Assembly (NCBI GenBank): GCA_003229235.1
Contig: QIIH01000308.1
Coordinates: 1-24,192, forward strand
Length of the DNA stretch: 24,192 bases
Origin: Flavobacteriales bacterium
GTDB taxonomy: Bacteria > Bacteroidota > Bacteroidia > Flavobacteriales > Flavobacteriaceae
Reading direction: 5' to 3'
The position numbers were made by a program, and so were the translations under genes. The notes under the pieces are model-generated. The model worked only from the letters and a program-made list of their open reading frames with translations. It searched no databases and was not told where the DNA came from. How positions within the stretch are numbered: the stretch's first letter is position 1; each line of letters begins with the position of its first letter. Shown here in pieces: positions 6,251 through 22,023 of this stretch.

Positions 6251-8362
6251 CTATTCGATTAGCAATCTTTTTATTTCTTTTTTGCCACTTTCAGAATCAA
6301 TGACGGTCACAAAATACAATCCACTTTTTAAGCTCGATGTATTACAGGTCAGTATAGATGTTTTACCAAACTTTTCTGTTATTAAAATGTGACCAAAAAC
6401 ATTCATAATTTGCACTGTTCCTGATTCGATTTGTGTCTTTGAAAAATCAATCAACACCTTATTTTTAGCTGGATTTGGAAAAAGTTTCATTCCACTAGCA
6501 CGACATTTTAATGACAAATCTTTCTCTACATACTCTGTGCAAATTGCGCCATCAATACCATACTTGATAGTTAATTTTATTTCTGGCTCAAGCAGGTCAG
6601 GCCCTGCAAAACTCTGTGTAGGAGGCACTGGATCTCCAGATACATTTCCGTTAGAAAATACCCATTCGTAAGCAATCCAATCTAAATTAGAACAGTTGGG
6701 CAAGACTACCGTGGCTTGTACTTCACAACCATTTTCAACAGTTTCTATAATAGGGTTCAAATCGCCACAACTGCATTCAACAGCGCAGGCCTCAATAGTA
6801 ATCGTATTCTCTCTGATACAACCCGCCTGATCGTTCACAAGAATCGAATACGTTCCTGATGTGGTAATATCTATTGCTTGGGTAGTTTCTCCCGTAGACC
6901 AAGTATACTCGGTATTAGTTGAAGATTCGTCAAAGGGACCATCTGCCGTTAAGGTTAATGTCTGGCCTGAGCTAATACAATTAACTATGGGGTCGACTAG
7001 AATATTAACTGGTGTATACGAAGGGTCAGAAACTCCCCAATTATCACAGAAAGTACCAGGATCGGCCATTACCAATATATCTCCTACCAGATCATTAGTT
7101 AAATAAAAATCAACTAAGAATATTTTTGTACAATCATTGATTAATCCATCTGTCAATAATGCATCCACACCAAATGGATAACCAATTCCACCATTGCCTA
7201 ATGTAACCGATGCAGCCGGATCTGAACTTGCTATTTCGAAATCAATTGTTCCATTCGAGTTATAAGTGGCATCCAAAGAAAAAGAGACTGGAAAATCTGG
7301 ACTCATAGAAAATTGCACGTTGTGAATTTCGTCCTGATAGTATTCGATAGTTCCTCTTAATTTTTTGACTAAATGAAATGGCCTCTTAACTCTCAATCTG
7401 CTTGTGATTGGGTCGTTTGCCTCCAAGTCCTCTGATACCATGCACCAGCCGTCGGTCATTCCACCAGGGCAACCATAAATAATATTCATTTTATGACATA
7501 CTTGTTCTGTAGGCTGAAATGCGCCTATAGGTGCTAATATACACTCAGCTACAGGCTCGTATTCAAAACAATTCTGCCATAGGTATCCATCAACAAAATC
7601 GGTGTCACTACAGGCGGAATATCTAAACTTAAATTCTGTTACTCCCGCGGGGATTGCAATACATCCTTCTAAATCCACATTGTTTAAGGTCATCATACCA
7701 TCACGTGTTACAGTATTGGTGCCCTCATAATCAAATGTGCAACTTATTGGGTCTCCAATAGGCGTACATGTGCCGTCTGGATTAGTTAAATAATCATCAT
7801 ATCCATTCACGTTTGCGAATTCTCTATAGTTTAAAAATTGGGGAATAGGACTTGTTATGGTTATCGACCAGTCAAATGTTCCTCCTAAATAAACATTGTT
7901 AGAACCCATTACATTGCCAGAAGTAGGTCGCTTTGCGAGTTTCACAGCTTCTACAGGTGCAGATGCTGCCTGAGTATTTAAACATGTTCTGTCTGTTAAG
8001 TCCATTGTTTTGGTTCCGAAGCATTCTGCTGCTGGAGTGCTAACAATAACTTTCATGGTTAAAGTGTCAATATTGTCCATTGTCTCGTATAAAAACAAGG
8101 GGCTTGTGCCAGTACTAATAGAGGCCCCGCCATTTACCGACCATCCATACTCAATTATTTCTAAACAATCACTTCCTGCATCACCCATAAATCCAACCAC
8201 ACAAGTGTCTGGGTCAGAAACAAAAGTAAAACTAGGATCTAAGTCTGCACTACATGTACATGTTGCGCTGCCTGGGCTATCATCATCGCTTTGGATAGCA
8301 TAGGTATGTTGCCAAACAAAACAGGCCAACATTAAACTAATTAAGAATGTAAAATTTTTCAT
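6251..8362 (-). CDS. Secreted multidomain protein with T9SS type A C-terminal sorting domain (paralog 1)
   Basis: This 703-residue protein starts with a signal peptide (MKNFTFLISLMLACFVWQHTYA). The mature N-terminal region has paired cysteines and a PKD/Ig-like stretch (DPSFTF, DCLE, YGWSVNG). The middle contains the conserved segment YGCPGGMTDGWCM. A later Ig-like domain has the familiar YTWSTGETTQAI and TSGTYSILVNDQAGC features. Residues about 625-703 form a T9SS type A sorting domain, with KLFPNPAKNKVLIDF near its start, LKSGLYFVTV and a basic KEIKRLLIE end. Such domains direct export through the Por/T9SS translocon and usually cell-surface attachment. It is a tandem paralog of the gene at 8534-10609, sharing architecture throughout and a near-identical DNA tract near the 3' end. 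No enzymatic motif is visible, so an adhesive or structural role is a guess. It has its own candidate promoter and a terminator. Confidence 0.88.
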   Translation of the reverse strand: MKNFTFLISLMLACFVWQHTYAIQSDDDSPGSATCTCSADLDPSFTFVSDPDTCVVGFMGDAGSDCLEIIEYGWSVNGGASISTGTSPLFLYETMDNIDTLTMKVIVSTPAAECFGTKTMDLTDRTCLNTQAASAPVEAVKLAKRPTSGNVMGSNNVYLGGTFDWSITITSPIPQFLNYREFANVNGYDDYLTNPDGTCTPIGDPISCTFDYEGTNTVTRDGMMTLNNVDLEGCIAIPAGVTEFKFRYSACSDTDFVDGYLWQNCFEYEPVAECILAPIGAFQPTEQVCHKMNIIYGCPGGMTDGWCMVSEDLEANDPITSRLRVKRPFHLVKKLRGTIEYYQDEIHNVQFSMSPDFPVSFSLDATYNSNGTIDFEIASSDPAASVTLGNGGIGYPFGVDALLTDGLINDCTKIFLVDFYLTNDLVGDILVMADPGTFCDNWGVSDPSYTPVNILVDPIVNCISSGQTLTLTADGPFDESSTNTEYTWSTGETTQAIDITTSGTYSILVNDQAGCIRENTITIEACAVECSCGDLNPIIETVENGCEVQATVVLPNCSNLDWIAYEWVFSNGNVSGDPVPPTQSFAGPDLLEPEIKLTIKYGIDGAICTEYVEKDLSLKCRASGMKLFPNPAKNKVLIDFSKTQIESGTVQIMNVFGHILITEKFGKTSILTCNTSSLKSGLYFVTVIDSESGKKEIKRLLIE
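6540..6671. repeat. 132-bp near-identical direct repeat, copy 1 (partner at 8826-8957)
   Basis: These bases match 8826-8957 with one difference by eye (A at 6594, G at 8880), which changes Leu to Pro in the product. The repeat lies inside the coding sequence of the first T9SS-sorted paralog. It covers the segment just upstream of the sorting domain, including EWVFSNGNVSGDPVPPTQSF and IKLTIKYGIDGAICT. Confidence 0.9.
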
Positions 8363-8533: not shown

Positions 8534-10609
8534 CTATTCAACCAACATTCTTTTTAGGGTTTGCGCTCCTGTTTTTTGGTCTGTAATTCTAACGAAATAC
8601 AAACCGCTTTTAAGGGTGCTAATGTTACATTCTAATGGCTCTACAATATTGCTAAAAGTCTCTTGAATTAATACATTCCCAACCATACTAACGATTTCTA
8701 TCGTCCCAGAATTCACAGCAATTGATTCAAGATCAATCATCACATAATCCTTGGCTGGGTTTGGGTAAAGCTTTAATCCCTTACTACGACACGCAAGGCT
8801 TAAGTCCTTTTCTACATATTCTGTACAAATTGCGCCATCAATACCATACTTGATAGTTAATTTTATTTCTGGCTCAAGCGGGTCAGGCCCTGCAAAACTC
8901 TGTGTAGGAGGCACTGGATCTCCAGATACATTTCCGTTAGAAAATACCCATTCGTAACTAATCCATTCGATATTGGCACAGTTGGGGAGTTCAGCCACCA
9001 TATCTACTTGACATCCGTTCTCGTCGGTAACAATTAATGGATTTAAACTACCACATTCGCACATCTCAAGACAAGTGGGCATTACCAATGTGCGTTCACG
9101 TACGCATCCTTTTTGATCGGTAACAACTACAGTATAAGATCCTGCATCCGTAATGACTCTTTCTTGATTTGTCGAACCATCGTCCCACACATACGTGGAG
9201 TTTTCTTCTTCAAATGGACCATCTGCTACCAATGTAATTGGAGTGCCACTATAGCAAAAAGTCCCCATAGGATCGGTCAAAATGATGGCTTCTTCGTATG
9301 GCGGATCCGAAGATGCATAATCTGTACAAAATACGCCAGGATCTGCAAAAGGTGTCTGATCACCAGTTAAACCGTTACTGATTACAATATTTTCTGCAAA
9401 AATAACACTACAACCGTCTAAATCATTAATTAGTTCTCCTTCCCAAAGAAGGGGGTATCTAATAGCTCCGCCCAAATTAAATGTGGCCGAAGGATTAAGT
9501 GGGTTCCAAATAATAAAATCGATATTACCCTCGCCGTCGTCATCTGTATCAAGGACAAACCCTGTTGGGAATAAATCACTCAAAGTAACAGAAACGCTTT
9601 GAAAATCGGAGGTGTCATGAGATAAAGTACCTGTCATGGTTTTTGCGCCCCAAAAATTACGCTTAAGATATAATTCACTCTCAATGGTATCACCAGCTTC
9701 CAAATCTGTCTCGTCCATACAAAAACCATCGGTCATCCCCATAGGGCAACCGTATCGAATCTCTACGGTATCGCAGGCTTCGTCTGTTGGGCCACTTGGC
9801 GCTCTGCCATCTAAACTAATACATGGGCCGCCGTTACCGTCGTATTGAAAACAGTTGGTCCATTGTACGGTTCCAGATAACAATCCGTTACCGCAAGCGC
9901 GATATAAAAAGCGAATCTCGGTAATTCCTGCTGGTAAGCAAAGGTCACCAGCAATTGGGAAATTTGGCACGGTTACATCAGGGATACCCGAAGAAGCTGG
10001 ATAATCGATAAACGCACTGTTTTGATAAACAAACGGGCAGTTCACTAAAGGATCGTCAGCAGGAATGTTGGCAAATTCGATATAATTAAAAAAGTTGTCG
10101 TCAGATGTGCTATTTATTGTAATAACCCATTCGAAAAGCATCGATGTATAAAGAACATTTATTTCGTTAGACCCACCAACGCGCTCAGCGTGTTTGGTAA
10201 CGTCAAACTCAAAAGGTCCTCCCGAAGTGTTTTCGCAGGTAAAAATTGTCAACCACATATTAGCACTCTCTATACATCGCACTGGCCCAGCACTAGCTTC
10301 TACAGTTAATGTTAGTGCATCAATATTATCGATGGTTTCGTATATAAAAATTGGACTACTGCCAGTGTTGAAGCCCAATGGTGAGCCATTTACGAACCAA
10401 GTAAAATCTAAGTCGCTAAGACAATCTCCGCCAGCATCACCTACAAAAGTTACAATACAGGTTTCTGGATCAGAAGAAAAGGTAAAACTCGGTTCAAGTG
10501 CTTCAGAACAATCACAAGGTTCGTCTTCCCCTCCTTTTTCTTGAGCGAAGGAAAATTGTCCAAAACTGTTAAATAGCAATAGACAAAGTAATATGGTAAA
10601 AATTTTCAT
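8534..10609 (-). CDS. Secreted multidomain protein with T9SS type A C-terminal sorting domain (paralog 2)
   Basis: This 691-residue protein begins with a signal peptide (MKIFTILLCLLLFNSFGQFSFAQ) and follows the same plan as the gene at 6251-8362. It has a cysteine-containing PKD/Ig-like N-terminal region (CDCSEALEPSFTFSSDPETC), a middle segment YGCPMGMTDGFCM, and an Ig-like domain (YVWDDGSTNQERVI, AGSYTVVVTDQKGC). Residues about 612-691 are a T9SS sorting domain (KLYPNPAKDYVMIDL, LKSGLYFVRITD, LKRMLVE). The sequence differs widely from its paralog except for a tract of about 44 residues before the sorting domain, which is almost identical even in DNA. It lies 110 bp downstream of the secretion operon in the same orientation. 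I see no convincing terminator between them, so read-through from the operon is possible. Its function is unknown; export to the cell surface by T9SS is well supported by family knowledge. Confidence 0.88.
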   Translation of the reverse strand: MKIFTILLCLLLFNSFGQFSFAQEKGGEDEPCDCSEALEPSFTFSSDPETCIVTFVGDAGGDCLSDLDFTWFVNGSPLGFNTGSSPIFIYETIDNIDALTLTVEASAGPVRCIESANMWLTIFTCENTSGGPFEFDVTKHAERVGGSNEINVLYTSMLFEWVITINSTSDDNFFNYIEFANIPADDPLVNCPFVYQNSAFIDYPASSGIPDVTVPNFPIAGDLCLPAGITEIRFLYRACGNGLLSGTVQWTNCFQYDGNGGPCISLDGRAPSGPTDEACDTVEIRYGCPMGMTDGFCMDETDLEAGDTIESELYLKRNFWGAKTMTGTLSHDTSDFQSVSVTLSDLFPTGFVLDTDDDGEGNIDFIIWNPLNPSATFNLGGAIRYPLLWEGELINDLDGCSVIFAENIVISNGLTGDQTPFADPGVFCTDYASSDPPYEEAIILTDPMGTFCYSGTPITLVADGPFEEENSTYVWDDGSTNQERVITDAGSYTVVVTDQKGCVRERTLVMPTCLEMCECGSLNPLIVTDENGCQVDMVAELPNCANIEWISYEWVFSNGNVSGDPVPPTQSFAGPDPLEPEIKLTIKYGIDGAICTEYVEKDLSLACRSKGLKLYPNPAKDYVMIDLESIAVNSGTIEIVSMVGNVLIQETFSNIVEPLECNISTLKSGLYFVRITDQKTGAQTLKRMLVE
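8826..8957. repeat. 132-bp near-identical direct repeat, copy 2 (partner at 6540-6671)
   Basis: This is the second copy of the tract shared by the two tandem T9SS-sorted genes, with 131 of 132 bases identical to 6540-6671 by eye. The flanking coding sequence diverges quickly on the side toward the N-terminus. On the sorting-domain side it stays partly similar for a short distance. Confidence 0.9.
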
Positions 10610-10719: not shown

Positions 10720-11196
10720 TTAATTTTTTACAAAGCTTTTAACCTCCTTACCTAGCTGAATGTGAACAGAATCCCTAAACACTTTCTTTACCAAAATCTT
10801 TTCAAATTTTTCGCCTTGACGCAATCGTTTCAATTTATTATTTATCGTTAAAAGAACCAAAGGAGCAGACTGATCGTTACTTTTAACAAACCCGAAATAC
10901 GCAATATTTGGCCATACTGTTTTGATGTTTTTCGAGTCTGACTTCGGTCGGCCCTTTGGCATATTTTCAGTCTTTTTTATTGGCATAACCCTTGAGTTTA
11001 AATAGGGGTCTCGGTTTAAAATCACAAGAACGAATGGATTCTTCTCAAATGGCAATTCATTTTCTTGAATAAATTCATTTGATGTTTTAAGTGGTTGCAT
11101 AGTAGCATTATTTGGCCAAAAAAAGCTATACCCAACAAAAGACCAGATAAGGGCTAATGCCACAATTAAAATTTTATTTATTCGCGATTTATTCAT
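10720..11196 (-). CDS. Small GspC/PilP-like inner-membrane protein of the secretion machine
   Basis: The 158-residue product has a short cytoplasmic start (MNKSRINK), one transmembrane helix at about residues 8-27, a linker of about 65 residues containing a basic stretch, and a C-terminal domain at about 95-155. The C-terminal domain has the layout of the small beta-barrel of GspC (HR region) and PilP: IAYFGFVKS, then LVLLTINNKLKRLRQGEKF, then a terminal strand VHIQLGKEV. In those families it docks onto the secretin N-terminal domains from the periplasmic side. The protein is short for GspC and has no PDZ domain. The ATG at 11196 is chosen because it overlaps the preceding stop by 8 nt (ATGAATAA) and places the helix correctly. 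A start 12 codons further upstream would add an unlikely extension. It is the last gene of the operon. The assignment rests on architecture and position, not on close sequence recognition. Confidence 0.65.
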   Translation of the reverse strand: MNKSRINKILIVALALIWSFVGYSFFWPNNATMQPLKTSNEFIQENELPFEKNPFVLVILNRDPYLNSRVMPIKKTENMPKGRPKSDSKNIKTVWPNIAYFGFVKSNDQSAPLVLLTINNKLKRLRQGEKFEKILVKKVFRDSVHIQLGKEVKSFVKN

Positions 11197-12187
11197 TAAC
11201 AATAAACTTTCCGTTAAGATTATAGCCCCCAATGTTCCCCGCTAAGTCTTCACCTCTAACTCTCCAATAGTAAGTGCCAATGGCTGTAAATTCTTGACTA
11301 AACGACGTCCCTTCTGTATCGCCGTTTAGTACTACATTTGTAAAGCTTTTGTCTGATGCGACTTCATAAATACTAGTAACTGTAGAAACAACGGGACCAG
11401 AATCACTTGCATAATTCCAACTAAATGAAATTAACTCGTCTACAACAAATTCTTGCTCAAAAGTGGGGGTCAACAATGACGGAACACTTGGCACAACCGT
11501 ATCTATGCTAAAAGTTCTCGTACTAGCTGTGGTTTGGGTTTCGTTGTCTGTATTAACTGCAAATACTTCCCATTTATACACTGCGTCTTCTGATAATACC
11601 GAATCGTCTAAACTCAATGACGTTGTTGTTAAAGGCTCGGACTCATAAACAATGCTCTCTCCGCTTGTCGTCACTTTTATCAGTGCGAATTCGTAATGCG
11701 AAGCAAATTCTATTGCGGTCCAATTAAAAATAATTGAAGTGTCATTGGTATAAAGATCATCAGAAGGGCTTATTAACTCTATGACTTGTGCAGTCAAATC
11801 ATTGGTGGATTCTACGTTAAACTCTTGAGGAAATGTAAACGCTGTCTCATAGGCAAAATTCTCACCTTTTACCCGCCACATATACTCATCAGAGGGAAGC
11901 AACAATGATAAAAGCGCACTGTTTACCACAGAATCGATTACAATTCTGGCATCTTGATAAACCTGAACGTTGTAACTGTCTGCCCCCTCAAGAGAGAACC
12001 ATAAAAATTGCACTGTATTACCTTGAATGGTATCACCCTCTAAAGGGCTAACCAGATTGATTTGGTCGTTGGTGATGTCTTCTTCTAACACATCTTCACA
12101 GGCACTAAAACCTACGAATACTATAAGAAATGCCAACGTATTAATTTTTTTCGTACTGTCTAAAAAACAATTGACTAAAGAGTTCAT
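11189..12187 (-). CDS. Lipoprotein with about three fibronectin III-like domains, inside the secretion operon
   Basis: The 332-residue protein has a lipoprotein signal peptide ending in lipobox GFSAC, with the lipidated cysteine at residue 30. Three repeats of about 90 residues follow. Each has FN3-like strand signatures: VQFLWFSLEGADSYNVQVY and EYMWRVKG; IIFNWTAIEFASHYEFALIK and VYKWEVFAVN; ISFSWNYA and YYWRVRGEDLAGN. Each repeat opens with an SPLEGD, SPSDD or TPTFEQ turn. The gene starts inside the preceding GspM-like gene (47-nt overlap) and its end overlaps the GspC/PilP-like start by 8 nt, so all three are probably translationally coupled. In canonical systems an outer-membrane lipoprotein (GspS or PilW-type pilotin) helps secretin assembly. 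This one might do that or add a periplasmic or surface collar, but no pilotin motif is visible. The only ATG giving a signal peptide is 12187, and it carries a rather long 17-residue leader before the hydrophobic core. Confidence 0.82.
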   Translation of the reverse strand: MNSLVNCFLDSTKKINTLAFLIVFVGFSACEDVLEEDITNDQINLVSPLEGDTIQGNTVQFLWFSLEGADSYNVQVYQDARIVIDSVVNSALLSLLLPSDEYMWRVKGENFAYETAFTFPQEFNVESTNDLTAQVIELISPSDDLYTNDTSIIFNWTAIEFASHYEFALIKVTTSGESIVYESEPLTTTSLSLDDSVLSEDAVYKWEVFAVNTDNETQTTASTRTFSIDTVVPSVPSLLTPTFEQEFVVDELISFSWNYASDSGPVVSTVTSIYEVASDKSFTNVVLNGDTEGTSFSQEFTAIGTYYWRVRGEDLAGNIGGYNLNGKFIVNE

Positions 12188-12668
12188 TCTTCCTGGTTTT
12201 ATAGTTCTTTTTTAAATAAATGTTTACATGTGCAATTCTGGAGAGCTCAAATTTTGTCTCTAAATCGTGCATCGTTTTGAGCAACTCGTTAATGCCTCCT
12301 TGCAGGGTTAACGAGTTGGTGTATACTGTAAAATAATCGTCTTTGGCCTTGTGCATCGGGTCAAAAGACATGATTTTTATATCGTATGGCCGTGTTGCAA
12401 CGAATTCCATTATGGCGTTCTGAACCAAAATAGGATCGGTTGAATTTTTACCAATAATTGCGTCTAAATGATTATTTTTATTCAGAGCAATGCTTAAGCG
12501 CTGGTTAAGTGTTTGTGAATTCGCAATTTTTGCTTTGGCTGAATAGTATCCGTTTACCGTATTAAATGTAGGCCCGAAAGAGCGACTGTAAGCAATAAAA
12601 CATAGTAGCAGAGCCAAAACAATTAGTGCGTAAAATTGTTGTTTATATGTGAGCCTAGAGAGCTTCAA
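12141..12668 (-). CDS. GspM/PilO-like inner-membrane assembly-platform protein
   Basis: The 175-residue product has a short cytoplasmic N-terminus (MKLSRLTYKQQ), one transmembrane helix at about residues 12-28, a helical or coiled-coil region at about 35-75, and an alpha/beta periplasmic domain at about 85-155. This is the standard plan of GspM and PilO, whose ferredoxin-like domain pairs with GspL/PilN. The start overlaps the stop of the GspL-like gene by 4 nt (ATGA), the classical L-then-M order. Its 3' end overlaps the FN3 lipoprotein gene by 47 nt. Sequence identity to well-known GspM proteins is not obvious by eye, as is usual for this fast-evolving component. The assignment is based on topology and gene order. 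Confidence 0.75.
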   Translation of the reverse strand: MKLSRLTYKQQFYALIVLALLLCFIAYSRSFGPTFNTVNGYYSAKAKIANSQTLNQRLSIALNKNNHLDAIIGKNSTDPILVQNAIMEFVATRPYDIKIMSFDPMHKAKDDYFTVYTNSLTLQGGINELLKTMHDLETKFELSRIAHVNIYLKKNYKTRKNELFSQLFFRQYEKN

Positions 12669-13834
12669 ATTTCAATTTTTAAAGTGAATTCATAATTATT
12701 TCCGATTTGATTAAAAGCAATAAACTCGACCGTCTTGACCCATTGAATAGTTTTTAGTTTTGCAACCCAATCTGAGGCGGTCATAGCTTCATTACTCATT
12801 CCAGAGACCATAATTTGATTCTGGGTAAAAACTATTGCCTCTCCTTCTTTTATTTTTCGGATAAGAGGGAATACTTGCGTTTGTGATAAACCAATTTGAT
12901 CTGGCACAGACTGCGCTATTTCCCAAACAAATTGGCTTAAATAAGTACCGCTTCCCAATCCTGCAGCGCTTACGATAGTTTCTTTGTTAGCAATGTCTGT
13001 TTCTAGATTTGTAATTTGTTGTTCCAATTTTGTATTGATGTTCAATTGTGTTTGAATATTGGCATTCTTTTGGGCGTAAAATGCAGAAAGACTATAACTA
13101 AGAGCTAAACTCAAAAACAAAAATGCAACTGTGACAATCCCTGCTTTTTTGGTAAGTTGTTTAAACGTAAATCGCTCTTTAAGTTCTGTTACAAAAGCAG
13201 AGTAATTAGTATATTGATTACCAATAGTAAAGTGATGCACTAAGCTGGCAAACCCAACGGCACTTGAAGCATATATCGTATTATCTTCTAGAACAAATTC
13301 TGTAAGTTGGGTGACATCTCCTTCAAAAGTTACGAGCTCACAGGTATTGAAATCAAACTCATATTCTGGGGTAATAAATTTTGTCGTAGACTCGAATAAA
13401 GCAGAAAAACTTATTAGGGACCATGGGCCAACAAGCAAGTCAATAATTGCAATTCCAGCTGCAGAAAACACCTCAAGTAAGTCTTTTACAATTGATTTTC
13501 TAACAACTGCCACAAGTCTATTTTCTGCCTGTGGCCGGCTATAAATATAAAAATCTTCAGGGTTGCTGGTAAACAAAACTTCTTGTAAATAATTTGTTTT
13601 ATTCACCACGTTTTTAGCAATCACTTTATCGCCTGTAAGTGTTAGAATAACAGGAATACTTTTGGATAAATAGTCAAATAACTGCTGTCTAGATCTAAAC
13701 ACTTTCTGCTCTAAAACTTCTAGGGAGTTGTCCTTATAAAGGGACAAAACAGCATAAAAAATACAGTGCTCTCCTTCTAGATGCACTTGCACAGAGTATC
13801 GCTTTTTTGCTATATCTATTTTTGGAATTTTCAT
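12665..13834 (-). CDS. GspL-like (fused PilM/PilN-type) assembly-platform protein
   Basis: The 389-residue protein begins with a cytoplasmic region of about 228 residues that looks like a degenerate actin-like PilM/GspL domain (VVRKSIVKDLLEVFSAAGI, then LLVGPWSLISF, and a SSAVGFASLVHHF helix near residue 190). One transmembrane helix follows at about 231-253, then a predicted coiled coil at about 255-290, and a PilN/GspL-type periplasmic alpha/beta domain at about 305-389. In the family the cytoplasmic part binds GspE and the periplasmic part pairs with GspM. The actin-like ATP-binding motifs are not clear, as in GspL, which does not bind nucleotide in the PilM manner. The ATG at 13834 lies 4 bp after the secretin stop. 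A TTG start 15 nt upstream would overlap that stop and is less likely. Confidence 0.82.
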   Translation of the reverse strand: MKIPKIDIAKKRYSVQVHLEGEHCIFYAVLSLYKDNSLEVLEQKVFRSRQQLFDYLSKSIPVILTLTGDKVIAKNVVNKTNYLQEVLFTSNPEDFYIYSRPQAENRLVAVVRKSIVKDLLEVFSAAGIAIIDLLVGPWSLISFSALFESTTKFITPEYEFDFNTCELVTFEGDVTQLTEFVLEDNTIYASSAVGFASLVHHFTIGNQYTNYSAFVTELKERFTFKQLTKKAGIVTVAFLFLSLALSYSLSAFYAQKNANIQTQLNINTKLEQQITNLETDIANKETIVSAAGLGSGTYLSQFVWEIAQSVPDQIGLSQTQVFPLIRKIKEGEAIVFTQNQIMVSGMSNEAMTASDWVAKLKTIQWVKTVEFIAFNQIGNNYEFTLKIEI

Positions 13835-13838
13835 ATTA

Positions 13839-15758
13839 CTAATAAACAATAGTGGGTTTTATAAATACATGAAGTTTGGATTTTGACTTCGCTTTACGTT
13901 TACTGCTAAAAATCCATTTGATAACAGGAATACGCGATAAAAACGGTGTGCCTGTTCCTGAGTTTTCTTTATCAACCTCGTCCAGTCCGCCAAGCAAAAT
14001 CATTTCGTTATTACGCACGCGCACCAAGGATTCAAAATTTTGAGATGTTTTACCTGGAGGAGCATTCTCTGCCACGCGACCTAAAAAAGCACTCTTCTCG
14101 ACACTAATTTCTAAAGTAACATGCTCGTCTTTTGAAACATATGGTGTAATATTCACGCTTAAGTTTGCCTCAGTCGATTTCCAAGTACCAGAAGATGTAA
14201 AGCGATCAGCGCCTCCTCCTGAACCATTAATTAATTCGTTATTTTGTTCAAAGTACCAGCTAGTTTCTCCAACACTAATACTGGCTTGGTTACCACTAAG
14301 GGTTGCGATTTTCGGAGTCGATTGAAGACTAATAATTGAGTTGGACTCAAGTGTAGAAAGATTGGCATAAAAATTCTTGGTTACCTTGCCCAGAGTAACA
14401 ATGCCAAAACCGTTAAAAATGTCGATCAAGCTGTTAATCGAACTTGCATTTAAAGCAACGTTGGTGTTTGGGAACAAAACTCCTTGTGTTTCAACATCTT
14501 GCCCTTCATTGCCCAAAAGGGCTTGTAAACCAGTTTGTAAGTCGTACGACTTTTTATATTGTACAATCAATACCTCGATTTGCACCATGGGTACAATTCT
14601 GTCGATCTCCCTTATATAAGTTTTTAGCTCATCTATACGAGGTTTTGAGCCCGAGGCGACAAAGCCATTGAGCTCTTTTACTTCTCGAACATCTACTCCT
14701 TCTAATAAATCAGCTGGCAGCGTACTAATGACGGCTTCAATTGACCTATTTTCTAATTGAATTAGTTCAGAAACTCTGAGCCCTGCAGTATTTTGAGCGC
14801 CAATTATATACGCGCCATCATTTATCTTAAACGTATACTCAGATCCTTTGAAAATATGAGTAAGTAAATCATCAAAATCAATTTGAGATACTATTAAGGT
14901 GGCTGTTTCTGCTTTAGGGATGTCGTAAAAGAAGTAATCCAAATCTAGAGCTGCTGCACTTTGGGTAATAACACTTTCGAGGTCTGCTTCGTATGCTTTA
15001 ATTTTTAAATAGCCATTTTCATTAAGTGAAACATCTAAGGTGCCAGAGTTTGTTTTTTTAGTTTTAGCATTGCTCCCTCTTCCCTTTGTCGTTGCTGAGG
15101 TTTCTTCTTTTTTCTCTGTAGATTTTTCTAAAAAATAAAAGCCGTTCTCGTCTTTTGTAGCAACTAATTGGTTCGATTTTGCCATCATCTCTATTACCTG
15201 ATCAAATGGTCGATTCACGATATAAGCAGATACTTTAAATGTCTTTACCTCTGGAGAGAGTACTATGTTTTTATTTGTGAGTTCTGTGATGCGTTGTGCT
15301 ACACGAGGTAAAGAATCGTTTTTAAGCTTTACCGATAAAAAATCGTTTTTAGCACTGTACGTCACATCTACAGGTGGCATCTCCTTTTTGACTTCTATAA
15401 CGGGCTCTTGCTTCTTTTTATCGAAGGTGATAATACCGTTAACAAAGCCCAATTCTATGTCGTATTTCTGCACCAAAAACATGAAGGCATCACTTACTTG
15501 TACATCGTAAAAATTAGATCTAACCACATCGTTTAAAGCATCATCGACACTAACATTTAACTCATGTTCTTGGGCAATCGCGGCAATGAGATCATACAGG
15601 GAAAGGCCAGAAATATCGATGCGCATTTTTTCAAAAATCCCAGGTCTATCTTGGCCGATGTCCTCGAGTTGTGCCTCAAGTTTTTCGAGTTCGGTGTTTT
15701 GTCCCAACGTCGTAAAAGACATAAGCCAAAACAGGCTATAAAGAAATATGTTCCTCAT
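13839..15758 (-). CDS. gspD: Outer-membrane secretin (GspD/PilQ family)
   Basis: The 639-residue protein has a signal peptide (MRNIFLYSLFWLMSFTTLGQ) and an STN/N0-like domain at about residues 44-113. Two further STN-like modules at about 130-212 and 243-321 are separated by a Lys/Ser/Thr-rich linker (213-240). An N1-type ring-building domain lies at about 330-388, and the secretin channel domain at about 388-638. Diagnostic features of the channel domain are VPMVQIEVLIVQ, STPKIATLSGNQASISVGE, NNEMILLGGL and the C-terminal PFLSRIPVIKWIF. Secretins form the multimeric outer-membrane exit of T2SS and type IV pili. No S-domain for a canonical pilotin is evident, since the protein ends right after the channel domain (FIKPTIVY). 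It lies 10 bp after the ATPase gene and 4 bp before the GspL-like gene, which fits a single transcript. The tandem STN-like modules are more than in textbook GspD. Confidence 0.93.
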   Translation of the reverse strand: MRNIFLYSLFWLMSFTTLGQNTELEKLEAQLEDIGQDRPGIFEKMRIDISGLSLYDLIAAIAQEHELNVSVDDALNDVVRSNFYDVQVSDAFMFLVQKYDIELGFVNGIITFDKKKQEPVIEVKKEMPPVDVTYSAKNDFLSVKLKNDSLPRVAQRITELTNKNIVLSPEVKTFKVSAYIVNRPFDQVIEMMAKSNQLVATKDENGFYFLEKSTEKKEETSATTKGRGSNAKTKKTNSGTLDVSLNENGYLKIKAYEADLESVITQSAAALDLDYFFYDIPKAETATLIVSQIDFDDLLTHIFKGSEYTFKINDGAYIIGAQNTAGLRVSELIQLENRSIEAVISTLPADLLEGVDVREVKELNGFVASGSKPRIDELKTYIREIDRIVPMVQIEVLIVQYKKSYDLQTGLQALLGNEGQDVETQGVLFPNTNVALNASSINSLIDIFNGFGIVTLGKVTKNFYANLSTLESNSIISLQSTPKIATLSGNQASISVGETSWYFEQNNELINGSGGGADRFTSSGTWKSTEANLSVNITPYVSKDEHVTLEISVEKSAFLGRVAENAPPGKTSQNFESLVRVRNNEMILLGGLDEVDKENSGTGTPFLSRIPVIKWIFSSKRKAKSKSKLHVFIKPTIVY

Positions 15759-15768
15759 CGTTTAGGGA

Positions 15769-17172
15769 TCAGTCAATTAATAGTGCATATACCTCGGCAA
15801 TCGAAGTAATTCCGTCTCGAATTAATTCCAAGGCCTTTTGGGAGATTGGTTCGTATTGTATACTCGGAAGATTAGCAACTCCAGCGATATCATTCTGTTT
15901 GAGTAATTTTTTTACTTCGGCATTAATTGGGATACATTCATAAACTGCAACCCGCCCTTTATAACCTGTATAATAGCAAGTATCACAGCCCACAGGAACA
16001 AAATGAGTGTCAACAAGTGATAAAAGTCCATTGCCTCTTTCTTCTTCACTTAATAGTTGCTGCTCTTTACAGTCAGGACACAGCTTACGTACCAAACGTT
16101 GAGCTACCGAAATTTTTAAAGTCTCAGACAACAAAAAAGGAGGAACCCCCATATCGATGAGCCTCGAAAGGGTACCTGCAGCAGAATTAGTATGAATTGT
16201 AGACAACACCAAATGTCCAGTTAGACTTGCTCTAATTGCCATTTGGGCAGTTTTTTCGTCTCTAATTTCGCCCAACATAATGATGTCGGGGTCTTGACGT
16301 AAAAAAGACTTAAGTGCAGCAGTAAACGTAAGCCCAATATCTTCTTTCAGCTGAACTTGGTTAATTCCGTCTAGTGTATATTCGATTGGGTCTTCTATCG
16401 TAACAATATTGCAATCAATTTTATTAAGCAGCTTTAAAGTGGCATAAAGCGTGGTTGTCTTTCCAGAACCTGTTGGGCCAGAAATTAAGATAATCCCCTT
16501 TGACGCTTTCGCAGCTTCTAAATAATGTGCTTGTTCTGCGTTTTGCATTCCTAAACTCTCCATAGAGAGATGCGATGTATCTTTTCCTAGCAATCGCATT
16601 ACCACTTTTTCGCCATAAAGAGTAGGCAAGACAGAAACGCGTATATCAAAAGCGTCATATTGGATTCTCCCATCCTGTGGAAGCCTACGTTCTGTAATAT
16701 TGAGCTTGGCTTTGATTTTTATTTTGTTGATTAGCTCTGCATATTGGTCTGCTTTAACCGCATAGCGTTCTACTAAGCGACCATCCATTCTGAAGCGAAT
16801 GCGGGCCTGTTTTTTATAAATTTCGAAATGAATATCACTGCTATCTGTGGCTTTGGCATCGTGAATCAAATTCTCAAGAAAATCTGTACTCATTACAAAT
16901 TCGCTTTGGCTTGCACCAGATTTAGTAAGTCGATAATATTTGGACAGAGCCTGTTTTATAAGATCTTTGGGGGTTTCTTCTAAAAAGACTTCGGTTCCGA
17001 ATAACATGGCGAGTTCGTTTGTGACCTGTTTGTGATTGTTGCCAATAATTGCATAACAATAAAGCCCGCTCGCCGTTTGCTGCTTAGGTATTATCCCATA
17101 CCGATGTGCTATCTCCCTATGCACCAATTGTTGTGTTGCCGTGTCTATTTGTATGTGCTGTAGTGTTTTCAT
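15769..17172 (-). CDS. gspE: Secretion ATPase GspE/PilB family
   Basis: The 467-residue cytoplasmic hexameric ATPase is expected to drive pseudopilus assembly. All motifs are present: Walker A GPTGSGKT (residues 232-239), Asp box IEDPIEY (259-265), Walker B IIMLGEIRD (297-305), His box STIHTN (324-329), and the zinc-binding tetracysteine motif CPDC (365-368) with CDTC (396-399). That zinc motif is typical of GspE and PilB and absent from PilT. Residues 1-90 form a shortened N1E/GspE_N-like region that would contact GspL. The ATG at 17172 overlaps the peptidase stop by 4 nt (ATGA), and an extension of 15 codons upstream would run deeper into that gene, so it is rejected. It is the only such ATPase in the window; no PilT-like retraction motor is seen. 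Confidence 0.96.
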   Translation of the reverse strand: MKTLQHIQIDTATQQLVHREIAHRYGIIPKQQTASGLYCYAIIGNNHKQVTNELAMLFGTEVFLEETPKDLIKQALSKYYRLTKSGASQSEFVMSTDFLENLIHDAKATDSSDIHFEIYKKQARIRFRMDGRLVERYAVKADQYAELINKIKIKAKLNITERRLPQDGRIQYDAFDIRVSVLPTLYGEKVVMRLLGKDTSHLSMESLGMQNAEQAHYLEAAKASKGIILISGPTGSGKTTTLYATLKLLNKIDCNIVTIEDPIEYTLDGINQVQLKEDIGLTFTAALKSFLRQDPDIIMLGEIRDEKTAQMAIRASLTGHLVLSTIHTNSAAGTLSRLIDMGVPPFLLSETLKISVAQRLVRKLCPDCKEQQLLSEEERGNGLLSLVDTHFVPVGCDTCYYTGYKGRVAVYECIPINAEVKKLLKQNDIAGVANLPSIQYEPISQKALELIRDGITSIAEVYALLID

Positions 17173-17666
17173 AAAACATTTAGGTTGTTGGTAAAAAAGT
17201 TTAAATCTAACGCCCATCCGAGGCCTTTAAGAGCTAATATATAGCCTGATAAAATCCCCGCAAGCGGAATAGAATTAGAACTGATAAACCGTCCTGCGAT
17301 AATCATTAAGACAAGACTTAAGAGTAGCCCGCTAATAAAAAACACCATATAACTATAAAGGCTAAAAAATGGGATCACAGCTACAAAAAACAAGACATCA
17401 CCTACCCCAATATGTGCCTTTAAAGGATTTGTAAAATGCCTAGTTTTAAACCAAAGATAAAGGCACATGCCAGCCATAACCAATGCCGTAAATCCGAGCG
17501 AATACAGCCCCTCACTCCATGGCCGGTTAACTACCATAGCGTCAAAAACTCCTAATCCAAGCAGCAATACCAAAAACAAAACGTGTATTGCTCTAGCCTT
17601 AAAATCTTGATACGTGATTCCGAGCGTAGCGATGGTAAATGCGATATTTGATGCAATTATTAGCAT
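17169..17666 (-). CDS. Short prepilin peptidase (aspartyl protease A24 family, no methylase domain)
   Basis: The 165-residue polytopic membrane protein has about five to six hydrophobic helices. The two catalytic aspartates of A24 peptidases are recognisable: Asp21 in ITYQDFKAR and Asp90 in the HIGVGD motif (GxGD). It cleaves prepilin leaders at the cytoplasmic face of the inner membrane. Canonical GspO/PilD is about 270-290 residues and has an N-terminal cysteine-containing N-methylation domain, which is absent here. The size resembles TadV/CpaA or archaeal-type peptidases. Start ATG 17666 shares one base with the stop of the major pseudopilin gene (TGATG), and the preceding TTG codon is a less likely start. 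Its position between the pseudopilin and GspE genes indicates that its substrates are the operon's own pseudopilins. Confidence 0.87.
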   Translation of the reverse strand: MLIIASNIAFTIATLGITYQDFKARAIHVLFLVLLLGLGVFDAMVVNRPWSEGLYSLGFTALVMAGMCLYLWFKTRHFTNPLKAHIGVGDVLFFVAVIPFFSLYSYMVFFISGLLLSLVLMIIAGRFISSNSIPLAGILSGYILALKGLGWALDLNFFTNNLNVL

Positions 17667-18097
17667 CAATCTTTTGTTACCTCTTGAAGGTTTTTATTAT
17701 GATCTATTTCCCAAGTATTATAAACGCCGTCACCATCAAAGTCGGACAAAGCAACAGCTCGAGCCTTAAAAGAGTTTGTGCTAGCCTCAACAATCTGAAT
17801 ATTGTATACGGCTTGCCCTCCTTGATCTATAGTAGATTCTTGTGTAAACCCTAGTTCGTCAAAGTCTGAAGTATATCGCGAAAAGCGATAAAAATAACTT
17901 TTCTCTAAGGCATGTACTTGATTGAGCATACTCTGTGCCTCTATGGCCTTGGCTTGGCCAATAACAGCTGTCTGATCGGGTAATACCATTAAAATTAGGA
18001 TTCCAATAATACAGAGTACAATTAGGATTTCTGTCATAGAATAGGCAGCTAAAGAGCCTATCGATGTTTTCTTTTTTATTTGTGTTTTGTCTTTCAT
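17666..18097 (-). CDS. gspG: Major pseudopilin (GspG-like) with C-terminal EF-hand-like loop
   Basis: The 143-residue protein has a basic leader (MKDKTQIKKKTSIGSLAA) followed by YSMTEILIVLCIIGILILM, a class III prepilin segment. If cleavage falls between Ala18 and Tyr19, Glu23 is at +5 and Pro40 at +22, as in type IV pilins and GspG. The usual Gly at -1 is Ala. The globular part starts like GspG (AIEAQSMLNQVHALEKSYF) and ends with DFDGDGVYNTWE at 119-130. That is a full 12-residue EF-hand pattern with D1, D3, D5, G6 and E12. GspG proteins bind calcium near the C-terminus, so calcium-dependent folding is likely here by analogy, although the motif is of a different kind. The gene lies 21 bp after gspF and directly before the peptidase. 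Confidence 0.88.
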   Translation of the reverse strand: MKDKTQIKKKTSIGSLAAYSMTEILIVLCIIGILILMVLPDQTAVIGQAKAIEAQSMLNQVHALEKSYFYRFSRYTSDFDELGFTQESTIDQGGQAVYNIQIVEASTNSFKARAVALSDFDGDGVYNTWEIDHNKNLQEVTKD

Positions 18098-18118: not shown

Positions 18119-19240
18119 TTAGCCCCCGATTACTTCACTTAGATTAAACATTGGTGCATACATAGCTATCATTATAACCCCAACTATGCTTCCGATAAAA
18201 ACGATAAGCATCGGCTCAATAACGGCTCCCATCATTTTGGTTTTATGGTCTACCTCTGTGTTATACTGTTTTGCTAGGGTATCGAACATACTATCGAGTT
18301 GGTTAACCTGTTCTGCAACGCTTACCATCGAGAGAATCTGATGGTCAAATATTTTATGTTTTTTCATAGATTGACTCAGTGATAAACCGTGCATTAAATC
18401 ACTTTTAGCTGCTATCAGAGCCTTTTCTAACGGATAAAAGCCTACAACTTTCTGAGCCATCTCGATAGAGGCTACAATTGATGTCCTTGCCAATAACAAG
18501 AGGGCCATGGCTTGACAAAACCGCGTTAAGTAAATCTCCCTTATCAGTTTCCCGAAAAATGGTATTCCCAACAATATTTTGGACTGTATGGCTCTAAACT
18601 TAGGTCTGTTTTTGACAACTCGATATACAAGAACTGTAACTGCAATTATTACTATGAAGGCTAAAAATATCAGATTAAATTTTTCTGACAGCGCCATAAC
18701 AAATTTAGTAATTGGTGGTAGTTCTTTATTAAATTGACTAAACACCGAACCAAACATTGGCACCACATAACTCAACATAAAATAGAGCGTTATCAAGGTG
18801 AGCCCTAGCACAAATGCCGGATAGGTTAGCATAGCGATCATTTGCTTTCTGAGCGCTACTTTTTTCTCAAAATATACTTGCAAAGCTGAAAGGACTTCAG
18901 CCAGTTTACGAGTTTCTTCCCCAATTTTTAAGCTGAAGATTTCGTAATCGGTAAAAGCTCCAGTGTCTTTAGCAGCCAGAAAAAACATTTTCCCCGCCAC
19001 AACATCGATCAAAATCGCGTCAACAATCGCTTTGGTTTTAGAATTCTTTTGCTGCTCTGACAAAATGGTTAAGGCAGTTTTAAAGTCTACTTGTGCAGCC
19101 AATAACATGGTAAAATCTTTATAAAATTGCATTTTTCGCTTGCTATTAAAGGCTGGCGTCCAGTTAAACAAGATGTCTTTTTTAACTTTTTTAGCGCGAC
19201 TCGCTTCTTGGGTCGATATGTTAGATAACGAGATACTCAT
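18119..19240 (-). CDS. gspF: Inner-membrane platform protein GspF/PilC family
   Basis: The 373-residue protein has two repeated T2SSF domains at about residues 38-160 and 238-360. Transmembrane segments lie at about 137-163, 188-208 and 338-363. Family features include KIGEETRKLAEVLSALQVYF followed by a basic segment and MLTYPAFVLGL in the first half, and SVAEQVNQLDSMFDTLA, then IEPMLIVFIGSIVGVIM, in the second half. GspF is the core on which GspE drives pseudopilin insertion. The cytoplasmic N-terminus of about 37 residues is basic. The ATG shares one base with the preceding pseudopilin stop (TAATG), indicating translational coupling. Confidence 0.94.
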   Translation of the reverse strand: MSISLSNISTQEASRAKKVKKDILFNWTPAFNSKRKMQFYKDFTMLLAAQVDFKTALTILSEQQKNSKTKAIVDAILIDVVAGKMFFLAAKDTGAFTDYEIFSLKIGEETRKLAEVLSALQVYFEKKVALRKQMIAMLTYPAFVLGLTLITLYFMLSYVVPMFGSVFSQFNKELPPITKFVMALSEKFNLIFLAFIVIIAVTVLVYRVVKNRPKFRAIQSKILLGIPFFGKLIREIYLTRFCQAMALLLLARTSIVASIEMAQKVVGFYPLEKALIAAKSDLMHGLSLSQSMKKHKIFDHQILSMVSVAEQVNQLDSMFDTLAKQYNTEVDHKTKMMGAVIEPMLIVFIGSIVGVIMIAMYAPMFNLSEVIGG

Positions 19241-19707
19241 TACATTTGTAATTTATTTGCAGCGAAATATTCTTTAAAAAAATAGAGTCGCAGGGGTTGT
19301 CCAAACAATCGGGTCTCTACCCATAATTCTCTTAGTAATGGACGTTTATCAGGCGTATTGACCTTTATGGCATTCACCTCAATTTGATTCACTGGAATAG
19401 AGTCTTTAACGGCTTCTTTTTGACGGTATAAAAAGGTGTTTTCTAGAATATAAGTTACTCTCGAAGCATCGTAATTAATTAAAGTAAATGCATTGGGTTC
19501 GTCCCAAAAAACATGAGTAGCCGTGGCCAGGTCTTCTTCTAAATGTTGTGAAAATGCCAGTAATTGTAAGTGTTCGTTAGCATTTTTAGAATAGTTATGA
19601 GCCCGCCCGCCTGCCATAGAAACGCTTGTATAAACTAAAGCAATAACAATGCTCAGCAACGCCATGGCAATTATCATTTCGAAAAGTGTGAAGGCAGCTA
19701 CTTTCAT
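19240..19707 (-). CDS. Minor pseudopilin (GspJ-like)
   Basis: The 155-residue protein has a very short leader, MKVAA, then FTLFEMIIAMALLSIVIAL. Cleavage after Ala5 gives Phe at +1 and Glu10 at +5, typical of pseudopilins except for Ala instead of Gly at -1. The globular part contains a beta-rich region ending in GQPLRLYFFKEYF. Length and the order with the next smaller pseudopilin suggest a GspJ role in the tip complex, but subtype cannot be fixed by eye. It overlaps the upstream pseudopilin gene by 4 nt and the gspF start by 1 nt. Confidence 0.8.
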   Translation of the reverse strand: MKVAAFTLFEMIIAMALLSIVIALVYTSVSMAGGRAHNYSKNANEHLQLLAFSQHLEEDLATATHVFWDEPNAFTLINYDASRVTYILENTFLYRQKEAVKDSIPVNQIEVNAIKVNTPDKRPLLRELWVETRLFGQPLRLYFFKEYFAANKLQM

Positions 19708-20051
19708 CGTTCTATTTTTTTAAATTCAAAAAGATCGAAGCGAAGTGTGTCTGTTTTATGAATAATCACCAAGGATTGTAAGTTTAAACCGTTTGATGAA
19801 TAGTCTAATGAGCCGTTCTGATGGTTTATAGACAAACCAGACTCTTTTGTTTTAAGCAAACCCAAAGTATCGGTATGAATAGCAATAGACTGCTTGAGTT
19901 TAGAATCCATGGTATAGTAATCGACAGGAGGTTGCACATTTGTTACTCGAACAAAAGTGCTTAAACCTATGGTTAAACAGAACGAAATAATCGCAATTGC
20001 AATTACTGCTTCTAAAAGCGAAGAGCCCGATATATGTACAGATCTCTTCAT
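19704..20051 (-). CDS. Minor pseudopilin (GspI/GspH-like)
   Basis: The 115-residue protein has leader MKRSVHISG followed by SSLLEAVIAIAIISFCLTIG. Cleavage after Gly9 places Glu14 at +5. It is the only pseudopilin here with the classical Gly at -1. The small size and beta-rich remainder fit GspI or GspH type minor pseudopilins of the tip. It overlaps both neighbours by 4 nt (ATGA), so it is probably produced together with the GspJ-like protein and the beta-helix protein. Confidence 0.78.
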   Translation of the reverse strand: MKRSVHISGSSLLEAVIAIAIISFCLTIGLSTFVRVTNVQPPVDYYTMDSKLKQSIAIHTDTLGLLKTKESGLSINHQNGSLDYSSNGLNLQSLVIIHKTDTLRFDLFEFKKIER

Positions 20052-21259
20052 ATTTTTTTTACAATTAGTGGAGCGCCACTGCCCAATTCTGGCAATTCAA
20101 TCCCAAAAAATAATTCTGGTTTTTCCAGTTTGCTAAGCGTAACATCTTTTAGCAAATTACTATAGCGAGTACTGGTGGTTTTATATAATAATGCCGAACT
20201 AAACACGGTTCCTTGTACATCTCCATAAAGCTCTAAAATTCCGTCACAGTAAAGTAGTCCTTCAATTTTTGCATCCTTTTGAACTACCAGCTCTTGCATT
20301 TTTTCGAAAGCCAATCCCGCTCCAGTGAGTATTACTGCGCCAGAGACTTTAGATTTTTCTCCAATCTCGATTCGACCAAGCTCATCACCACTTCCTGGCA
20401 CCACTAAAATAGAAGGGTAATAGAGTTGAACATTCTTGCCAGTTTGTATTTGAACACTGGCAATGACTTGTAGATTGCCTTTAAAATCGTCTTCGAAAAT
20501 TACTTTGGGAGCCAACACAATTATGTCTTCTAATATTGCTGATTTTTTAACGATTAGCGTGTCTGCAGATCGTACAATTATATTGCCTTTTAGCGTTACT
20601 AATTCTAAAAAATTAGAAACGTCAAATAGTATCGTCGGTTCAGAAAAATCTTGAATCAAGAGATTATTTTCTAGCCCTTCGATAAAGCCTTCTTCCCAAT
20701 TTTCAGGAATAAAATTGCTAGGCAATTCGTATTTTGGTAGAACTTTTTTTGAAATTAATTGCTGCCCCGAGTGTGTTGCTTTTTGGCTACTTTGCCCGTT
20801 TACTGATATTTTCTTGACTTTCTCAGGGCTGCTATAAATAGTTCCTTTAAGCGTGGTGTCTCCAGAAATTTTAAGAGGTTCGTCGTTATTTCGAATATAA
20901 AAGATAGGGTCATTATCTGCCTTACTCCATCCCATTAAATAATGTTGTATAAAATTTTCTTGTGCAATAAACATTTGTGCTTTAACCACCTCTAAAAAAC
21001 CCCATGGGCGCTTGCTTAGATCAATTCTCACGCCTTTTGATGGGTCTGCTTGATACTCAACTGGATTTTGCGAGAGTTCGTTAAAATGAGCCTTTGCCAA
21101 AGCTTGGGCTGAGAATCGCTGTCTTAGTAAGTCTGACCGCAATTGGTAGTGATCTTCTAATTGAGTATTCACAGAAAAAATCAACACAAAACCATAACAA
21201 AGTAGGGCTGTAATCACCGCCATAAAAATGGCATACGTTATAGAAGCCGCTTTTATCAT
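20048..21259 (-). CDS. Pseudopilin-like N-terminus fused to a bactofilin-like beta-helix domain (GspK position)
   Basis: The 403-residue protein begins MIKAASITYAIFMAVITALLCYGFVLIF. This is a short leader and a hydrophobic helix resembling a prepilin segment, with Ala5^Ser6 a possible cleavage site and no Glu at +5. GspK also lacks that Glu. Residues about 30-75 look helical. From about 135 to 370 there are regularly spaced short beta-turn units: LKGNIIVRSADTLIVKKSA, DIIVLAPKVIF, GRIEIGEKSKVSGAVILTG, VVQKDAKIEGLLYCDG and LELYGDVQGTVFSSALLYKT. This rhythm is like bactofilin/polymer-forming beta-helices. Gene order (tip pseudopilins next to it) suggests it caps or decorates the pseudopilus, replacing the globular domain of GspK. 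It is coupled to the MORN gene by TAATG and to the next gene by ATGA. The beta-helix reading is by eye. Confidence 0.75.
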   Translation of the reverse strand: MIKAASITYAIFMAVITALLCYGFVLIFSVNTQLEDHYQLRSDLLRQRFSAQALAKAHFNELSQNPVEYQADPSKGVRIDLSKRPWGFLEVVKAQMFIAQENFIQHYLMGWSKADNDPIFYIRNNDEPLKISGDTTLKGTIYSSPEKVKKISVNGQSSQKATHSGQQLISKKVLPKYELPSNFIPENWEEGFIEGLENNLLIQDFSEPTILFDVSNFLELVTLKGNIIVRSADTLIVKKSAILEDIIVLAPKVIFEDDFKGNLQVIASVQIQTGKNVQLYYPSILVVPGSGDELGRIEIGEKSKVSGAVILTGAGLAFEKMQELVVQKDAKIEGLLYCDGILELYGDVQGTVFSSALLYKTTSTRYSNLLKDVTLSKLEKPELFFGIELPELGSGAPLIVKKI

Positions 21260-21948
21260 TATTTCAATTTAATCTGAGTTGAATCACTTTTTTTTCTAAA
21301 CAAACGCTGGAACAAAGTGGATTTTTTGTCTTTGGGATTTGTCAAGGAATCTTGGGGCTTTTTCTTAAAAATCTTGTTCCAAAGCGAAACTTTTCCCGCG
21401 ATAGAATCTTCTCGTTTTTTTACAATACTGGGGCGTTCATTAAAAACTCTATAATCTCGATACCAAGTAGTATCCTTTAATTGATGATTAATCCATTTAC
21501 CTGCTTTTTGACCACCACGATAATGACCTGATATTAAAAGTTGACCTTTGGTGTCAAACTCCAGATATGCTCCTGATTTACGGCCACCTTTATAGCTAAC
21601 TTCTTTATAGTAATTGCCATTGGGATGCCAAGATTTCCATAACCCTGTTTTAAGCCCATAAATAAATTGCCCTTTTTGAGCTAGGTTGTTAGAGGCATAA
21701 TACTTCGTGTATTTGTCATGCAAAACGGCTCCTCCTGCAGAACTATAGGAGTTGTTGATTTGGCCTGATCGAAACCAAAAATAATGGCGGCCTTTTTCGG
21801 TAATGCGCTCTTTAGTATAAATGTAAAAGTGAATATCGTACTGCTGGGTTCTAATATACCGTTTGTGAAGATAATCGTTATAAAACGACATACAGAGACA
21901 TGCTGCAATGGCTATGGCCGTGTATATAAATACGCCTTGCTTTTTCAT
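21259..21948 (-). CDS. MORN-repeat membrane protein, first gene of the secretion operon
   Basis: The 229-residue protein starts MKKQGVFIYTAIAIAACLCMS, an N-terminal membrane anchor or uncleaved signal at about residues 5-21. Residues about 90-165 carry MORN-type repeats (GLKTGLWKSWHPNGNYYKEV, GGRKSGAYLEFDTKGQLLIS, GGQKAGKWINH). The C-terminal about 50 residues are strongly basic and low in complexity. MORN proteins of this sort are widespread in Bacteroidota, often mislabelled as antitoxins, with no defined role. Its stop overlaps the next start by one base (TAATG). This ties it to the secretion genes, perhaps as an accessory scaffold. The ATG at 21948 is chosen over a start 19 codons upstream because the upstream version would put a polar extension before the hydrophobic anchor. 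Confidence 0.8.
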   Translation of the reverse strand: MKKQGVFIYTAIAIAACLCMSFYNDYLHKRYIRTQQYDIHFYIYTKERITEKGRHYFWFRSGQINNSYSSAGGAVLHDKYTKYYASNNLAQKGQFIYGLKTGLWKSWHPNGNYYKEVSYKGGRKSGAYLEFDTKGQLLISGHYRGGQKAGKWINHQLKDTTWYRDYRVFNERPSIVKKREDSIAGKVSLWNKIFKKKPQDSLTNPKDKKSTLFQRLFRKKSDSTQIKLK

Positions 21949-22023
21949 TAGAATCAATATTTTATGTAGATTTCGGGACCAATTCCGCCAAGGGCGAAAA
22001 GGCACTTTACTTAAATCATAACA

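Follow-up and report, generated by a model that had tools for sequence, protein, structure and literature searches.

ComZ of Thermus thermophilus (Protein Data Bank (PDB) entry 6qvi) joins an N-terminal helix, a GspK-like pilin domain and an ice-binding-type β-solenoid inserted late in the pilin sheet; it is reported as a DNA-binding pilin for which a position at the pilus tip, and capping of the pilus, have been proposed, and its gene adjoins the pilin gene PilA2 (PMC6561018). The insert of GspK is α-helical (PMC6561018). Among type II secretion systems (T2SS), that of Bacteroidetes has been grouped with type IVa pili, apart from other T2SS, and is described as involved in protein secretion (Denise et al., PMC6668835). 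In Cytophaga hutchinsonii, T2SS mutants are defective in cellulose utilisation; the minor pseudopilins CHU_3200 and CHU_3201 adjoin the T2S-F protein CHU_3199, and CHU_3202 in the same cluster is given no assignment (Wang et al. 2017, PMC5553014). For Flavobacterium johnsoniae, Table 2 of the same study has three minor pseudopilins, Fjoh_0611-0613, beside the T2S-F protein Fjoh_0614 (PMC5553014). The present analysis concerns a T2SS-like locus on contig QIIH01000308.1 of a Flavobacteriales bacterium, a stretch of 24,192 nucleotides (nt) here called the window, and in particular the protein of 403 amino acids (aa) in its GspK slot, here named K. K is probably a ComZ-like tip pseudopilin standing in the GspK slot of a T2SS-like machine of Bacteroidota.

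The open reading frame (ORF) of K and its predicted parts are as follows, all coordinates being positions in the window:

20048..21259, minus strand: GspK-slot solenoid pseudopilin K, 403 aa (ORF, family searches and structure model)
21248..21259, minus strand: putative prepilin leader, residues 1-4 (placed by register against homologues with Gly at −1)
21089..21247, minus strand: N-terminal pilin helix, residues 5-57, no Glu at +5 (DSSP of the model, H2-46 and H48-57, and alignment)
20924..21061, minus strand: pilin-like antiparallel strands, residues 67-112 (DSSP of the model)
20132..20902, minus strand: β-solenoid, residues 120-376 (model and structural matches)
20054..20071, minus strand: last strand, residues 397-402 (DSSP of the model)

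An initial annotation of the window had read this gene as a prepilin-like N-terminus joined to a bactofilin-like β-helix. The 403-aa ORF is present on the minus strand at the position given, all three β-turn stretches quoted for it are found in the translation, and the AlphaFold2 model (predicted local distance difference test score, pLDDT, 89.3) consists of a pilin helix that lacks Glu5, followed by a small antiparallel sheet, a β-solenoid and a final strand. The body of K is thereby predicted, at high confidence, to be a β-solenoid. In the predicted models the chain runs from four strands through the solenoid to the last strand, an order that would fit a ComZ-type insertion; the last strand probably returns to the pilin sheet. 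In Foldseek searches of the PDB, ComZ is the top match of the K model (E 1.5e-3) and also of the model of a distant K homologue (E 6.6e-5). The annotation had named a different fold, or a gene not conserved beside gspF, as outcomes that would speak against its reading, and neither appeared.

The β-helix thus stands, and the bactofilin label does not. The Bactofilin profile (PF04519) matches window K at residues 319-356, in the late solenoid turns, with 19.6 bits against a cut-off of 27.9 (E 0.0011), and the best structural matches listed are ComZ and ice-binding folds. Across the family, 36 of 42 members give a match to the same profile at E <= 1, the best at 9.2e-7. We read this recurring match as a resemblance between short solenoid turns, with remote homology as a further possibility. 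Neither bactofilin nor GspK chains appear among the structural matches listed by Foldseek and VIA-align, which is not taken as exclusion. The usual GspK domain, correctly held to be missing, is found in no member: PF03934 (T2SSK) matches 0/42 at E <= 1. The NCBIfam GspK profile NF037980 matches one of the 42 (E 0.049), Ice_binding two and PilX_N one, and a PDB sequence search with the single K protein reaches a best E of only 0.2. Over 39 K-bearing genomes, PF03934 gives matches in 31, none of the listed places being at K; most are ORFs of ~650-780 aa, which we take to be helix-hairpin-helix proteins. PF03934 also gives matches in 10 of 14 control genomes and is therefore too unspecific to tell whether a GspK is encoded elsewhere.

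The N-terminus of K has prepilin character. GspK has no Glu at +5, and the corresponding column of the 42-member K alignment holds Glu in none of the 41 rows with a residue; together with the modelled helix, this bears out the prepilin-like start without Glu5 proposed in the annotation. Residue −1 is Ala in 24 members, Gly in 14, Ser in 3 and a gap in 1, and position +3 is L, I or M across the alignment. In window K the alignment register places cleavage after Ala4, after Ala5 also being possible, and in the outer families Gly stands at −1 and the site has the form of an ordinary prepilin site. K is matched by neither N_methyl (Pfam) nor TIGR02532 (NCBIfam). Residue −1 was compared with that of the sibling pilins at 29 loci, three of them with one detected sibling. 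This comparison omits L066 and L072, where no sibling pilin was detected, as well as rows without locus DNA, short-piece loci and later-fetched loci; the K residue of L073, which lies outside the alignment, was read by eye. K has Gly at −1 in 8 of the 10 loci where every detected sibling pilin has Gly there, and Ala or Ser in 17 of the remaining 19, a statistic that ignores shared ancestry. The K residue therefore tends to follow the sibling pilins, which suggests that a single prepilin peptidase may act on K and on its siblings.

K is real and conserved, more than chance, and it belongs to the Bacteroidota 'T2SS'. A protein search returns 14 proteins at E <= 1e-3, query included; with a single sequence as query, K turns up in 12 of 99 genomes, its own included, and with a 25-row profile in 31 of 395 phylum genomes. 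A 42-sequence profile run against a large protein set gives 10 proteins, 8 of them already known. Against genome contigs, the single K protein finds no relative and the family alignment finds 164 records. The GspF type of this locus (class boundary at least 294.9 bits, next 179.1, set by eye at a clear gap) is present in 35 of the 395 phylum genomes. Conservation beside gspF, proposed for checking in the annotation, is found in 29 of these 35 by profile; in each of the 29, a K match lies upstream of gspF on the same strand, with 737-1748 bp between its end and the gspF match. Four of the other six have a K of diverged sequence in this position (G432, G113, G109 and G104; E-values of this search apply to a small set of local ORFs), and in G386 and G312 gspF is broken or isolated, without a profile K. 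At the G386 locus (L076) a stop interrupts gspF and no K lies alongside, so the system is apparently decaying.

Three of 34 K places are away from gspF, namely G195 (contig end), G445 (extra copy) and G366 (weak, E 6.3e-4). The additional copy in G445, L066 (G445:C5), has no adjacent gspF, and the K matches of this genome fall on three contigs. The order K-I-J-F is kept in 10 of 11 relative loci, L024 being rearranged. In the best 80 of the 164 public records, K, two Glu5 pilins and gspF occur within 1.5 kb in 76, and a GspC-like gene lies upstream in all 80. The four failing records are L120 and L148, cut by contig ends, L117, with an insertion before gspF, and L123, with one pilin detected. 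The public-record and genome-sample counts are not independent, because the two sets overlap.

In the window, the genes run co-directionally in the order MORN, K, I-like, J-like, gspF, gspG-like, putative prepilin peptidase, gspE, gspD, PilN/GspL-like, GspM-like, Fn3 and GspC-like. K accordingly sits beside I- and J-type pseudopilin genes, in the GspK slot that the annotation had assigned to it, and the 4-nt coupling it had described to two minor pseudopilin genes is confirmed: by ORF coordinates the overlaps are 4 nt (K/I-like), 4 nt (I-like/J-like) and 1 nt (J-like/gspF), and both small pilins have a prepilin-type site with Glu5. N_methyl (Pfam) matches these two genes at E 0.0098 (below cut-off) and 1.5e-5 (above). 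The neighbours of K are:

21259..22005, minus strand: MORN-repeat protein, first gene of the K-I-J-F run (MORN_2 E 1.2e-5, below cut-off)
19704..20051, minus strand: minor pseudopilin, I-like, 115 aa, Glu at +5 (ORF, prepilin-type site)
19240..19707, minus strand: minor pseudopilin, J-like, 155 aa, Glu at +5 (TIGR02532 20.6 bits, cut-off 16.3)
18119..19240, minus strand: GspF/PilC platform protein (TIGR02120 E 3.4e-62, below equivalog cut-off)
17666..18097, minus strand: GspG-like major pseudopilin (weak family matches, Glu5 site)
17169..17669, minus strand: putative prepilin peptidase (from position, hydrophobic look and related ORFs at the same place in relatives; no NCBIfam match)
15769..17217, minus strand: GspE/PilB ATPase (TIGR02538 E 4.1e-140, below equivalog cut-off)
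13839..15758, minus strand: secretin, GspD-like (PF00263 E 9.7e-34)
12665..13849, minus strand: PilN/GspL-like protein (PF05137 E 0.0026, below cut-off)
12141..12668, minus strand: GspM-like protein, by position (NF040576 E 0.071, weak)
11189..12187, minus strand: Fn3-type protein conserved with the system, lipoprotein-like N-terminus by eye (fn3 E 1.9e-4, below cut-off)
10720..11232, minus strand: GspC-like protein, by position only (relatives directly upstream of K in many genomes)

The end of the MORN-repeat gene overlaps the start of K by 1 nt, and relatives stand at the same place in L057, L060, L061 and L062. Directly beyond the T2SS-like genes lie two similar large proteins (6251-8362 and 8534-10609, minus strand), both carrying a sorting tail for type IX secretion (Por_Secre_tail).

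The K family is also linked to Rhs proteins. Rhs_assc_core is present in 39 of the 39 K-bearing genomes searched (39 of 42, with G195, G324 and G366 left out). By the matches listed, 29 of 39 genomes have an Rhs core no further than 20 kb from K; for 10 kb and 5 kb the numbers are 24 and 13, and uniform placement would give 1.9, 1.0 and 0.5 genomes for the three distances. In G039, G052, G319 and G435 a near-K ORF, picked by eye, is over the Rhs cut-off, and adding these gives 33/39; the count of 29, from listed matches alone, is the one relied on here. Counted as misses are G265 and G270 (listed cores only >200 kb away), G071 (26 kb), and G099, G111 and G000 (none listed on the K contig). Rhs-core genes cluster near K-I-J-gspF in, for example, L014, L015, L019, L022, L057 and L060. 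Because Rhs cores cluster by K, the Rhs-type proteins near the system are the best candidates for its cargo; the transport step itself is proposed tentatively, from gene linkage. To our knowledge, the exit route of Rhs proteins from Bacteroidota cells without a type VI system is unsettled. A literature link between Rhs and type II secretion or pseudopilins in Bacteroidetes, Bacteroidota or Flavobacterium was not found in the titles and abstract openings listed, one listing covering 12 of 19 records. In the window, a giant ORF at 1-5403 (minus strand), open at the contig end, was suspected by its look to encode an Rhs protein; it has no NCBIfam or Pfam match and is therefore not counted as Rhs. 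Its sole relative among the compared ORFs of the fetched loci is L061 16510-19899.

A working model can be drawn from these features. A prepilin peptidase would remove the short leader of K, and its hydrophobic helix, without Glu5, would pack on its counterparts in the I- and J-like pilins, starting the pseudopilus. By analogy with GspK and ComZ, K would lie outermost. The solenoid, predicted to stand between the last pilin strands in place of the GspK helical insert, would form the face of the tip in contact with cargo and secretin, with the Rhs-type proteins encoded nearby as cargo candidates. Of the roles suggested in the annotation, a cap or a secretin plug may apply; polymerisation into a scaffold finds no support in these data. 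In its widest form, the model would make the Bacteroidota 'T2SS' a distinct export machine for giant Rhs-type proteins, its defining part being a solenoid tip pseudopilin of ComZ type, which would take the place of GspK and either engage the cargo or act as a secretin plug; this wider proposal is possible but doubtful.

Several observations weigh against a ComZ-like tip pseudopilin and its Rhs cargo. The ComZ match of the window K model has a Foldseek probability of 0.44, and no PDB match reaches E <= 0.001; by VIA-align Z, ice-binding proteins stand level with or above ComZ; and the two-domain alignment of K with ComZ has a root-mean-square deviation of 12.3, so that the pilin part is weakly matched. 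The 42-row family profile finds no ComZ or GspK chain among PDB sequences at E <= 10. For ComZ itself, processing by prepilin peptidase is not predicted (PMC6561018), which makes it a soft precedent for cleavage, and the leader rule is broken by two loci in each direction. Not every K gene is near gspF, as L024 and the extra copy in G445 show. Of the 360 phylum genomes that lack this GspF type, 105 also have Rhs cores, and on the window contig no Rhs core is matched.

Other roles for K have to be weighed against these data. It might sit at the tip as a receptor, serving uptake or attachment and not export, on a short competence or adhesion filament, with a solenoid that binds DNA or glycan as proposed for ComZ; the nearest two-domain fold is indeed that of a reported DNA-binding tip pilin (PMC6561018), and the grouping with type IVa pili by Denise et al. 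(PMC6668835) points the same way. The same authors, however, give protein secretion as the role (PMC6668835), in Cytophaga, whose system is presumably of this kind, mutants show a defect in cellulose utilisation (PMC5553014), and Rhs genes are tightly linked to K; a receptor is considered unlikely. Far less probable still is a membrane-anchored scaffold of bactofilin type, in which an uncleaved helix would serve as anchor and the β-helix would polymerise to position the secretion machine. The PF04519 matches across the family, including that of window K, would fit such a scaffold, but window K falls under the curated cut-off, the top structural matches are ComZ and ice-binding folds, and the K leader site tends to track the sibling pilins. 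In the models, moreover, pilin-like strands precede the solenoid in the chain and a further strand follows it, an arrangement that should hinder end-to-end stacking.

The nature of the cargo is more evenly balanced. Rhs linkage may reflect shared residence in variable islands, with K serving other cargo such as hydrolases, and this explanation has about an even chance of being right. At E <= 1e-8, Rhs cores are widespread in the phylum, with 139 of 395 genomes carrying them, and the window has two proteins sorted by type IX secretion beside the system and no Rhs-core match. At the same threshold, however, Rhs cores are found in 34 of 35 genomes with this GspF type versus 105 of 360 without (Fisher p 5e-16, uncorrected for phylogeny or genome size). 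The other PilC-like loci among the matches listed in 13 of these genomes show no such linkage: a listed core lies within 20 kb in only 1 of 14 loci, versus 11 of 13 for K.

With K read as a ComZ-like tip pseudopilin, the family provides a marker for the missing tip of the Bacteroidota secretion machine. It indicates that a solenoid can stand where the helical insert of GspK normally sits, and it ties the machine to Rhs proteins, a link that gives it a testable purpose. The annotation had called the combination a new design, which is too strong, because ComZ of Thermus already couples a GspK-like pilin domain to a β-solenoid and has been proposed to cap the pilus (PMC6561018). The architecture of K thus has one solved precedent, and its phylum-wide use in a T2SS-like machine was not found in the literature searched: a search on solenoid, pseudopilin and GspK gave only the ComZ study and one Streptococcus pilin study, and no title on a solenoid pseudopilin in Bacteroidota was found (one listing covering the best 15 of 86).

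Like ComZ, K combines a pilin domain and a β-solenoid in one chain, in its case in predicted models, and its gene stands beside another pilin gene. The ComZ solenoid is longer (~380 residues versus ~257 in K; PMC6561018), the K family profile gives no sequence match to ComZ, and ComZ serves a competence pilus, whereas the K locus encodes a T2SS-type secretin, ATPase, platform and pseudopilins. With GspK, K shares the slot beside I- and J-like pilins and a large extra domain, which is a helical insert in GspK and a solenoid in K, no K member matching T2SSK. K differs from bactofilins (PF04519) in its prepilin-like helix, pilin-like strands and secretion-operon setting, besides the score of window K below the cut-off. 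Ice-binding proteins of the DUF3494 type are without a pilin part, and K gives no sign of ice binding. The T2SS of Cytophaga and F. johnsoniae are presumed to be the same kind of system as the K locus; the available part of their description does not mention a solenoid or a replacement of GspK (PMC5553014). From gene order alone, CHU_3202 and Fjoh_0611 are predicted to be K, and one K gene, Fjoh_0611, may therefore already stand as a minor pseudopilin in that account (PMC5553014).
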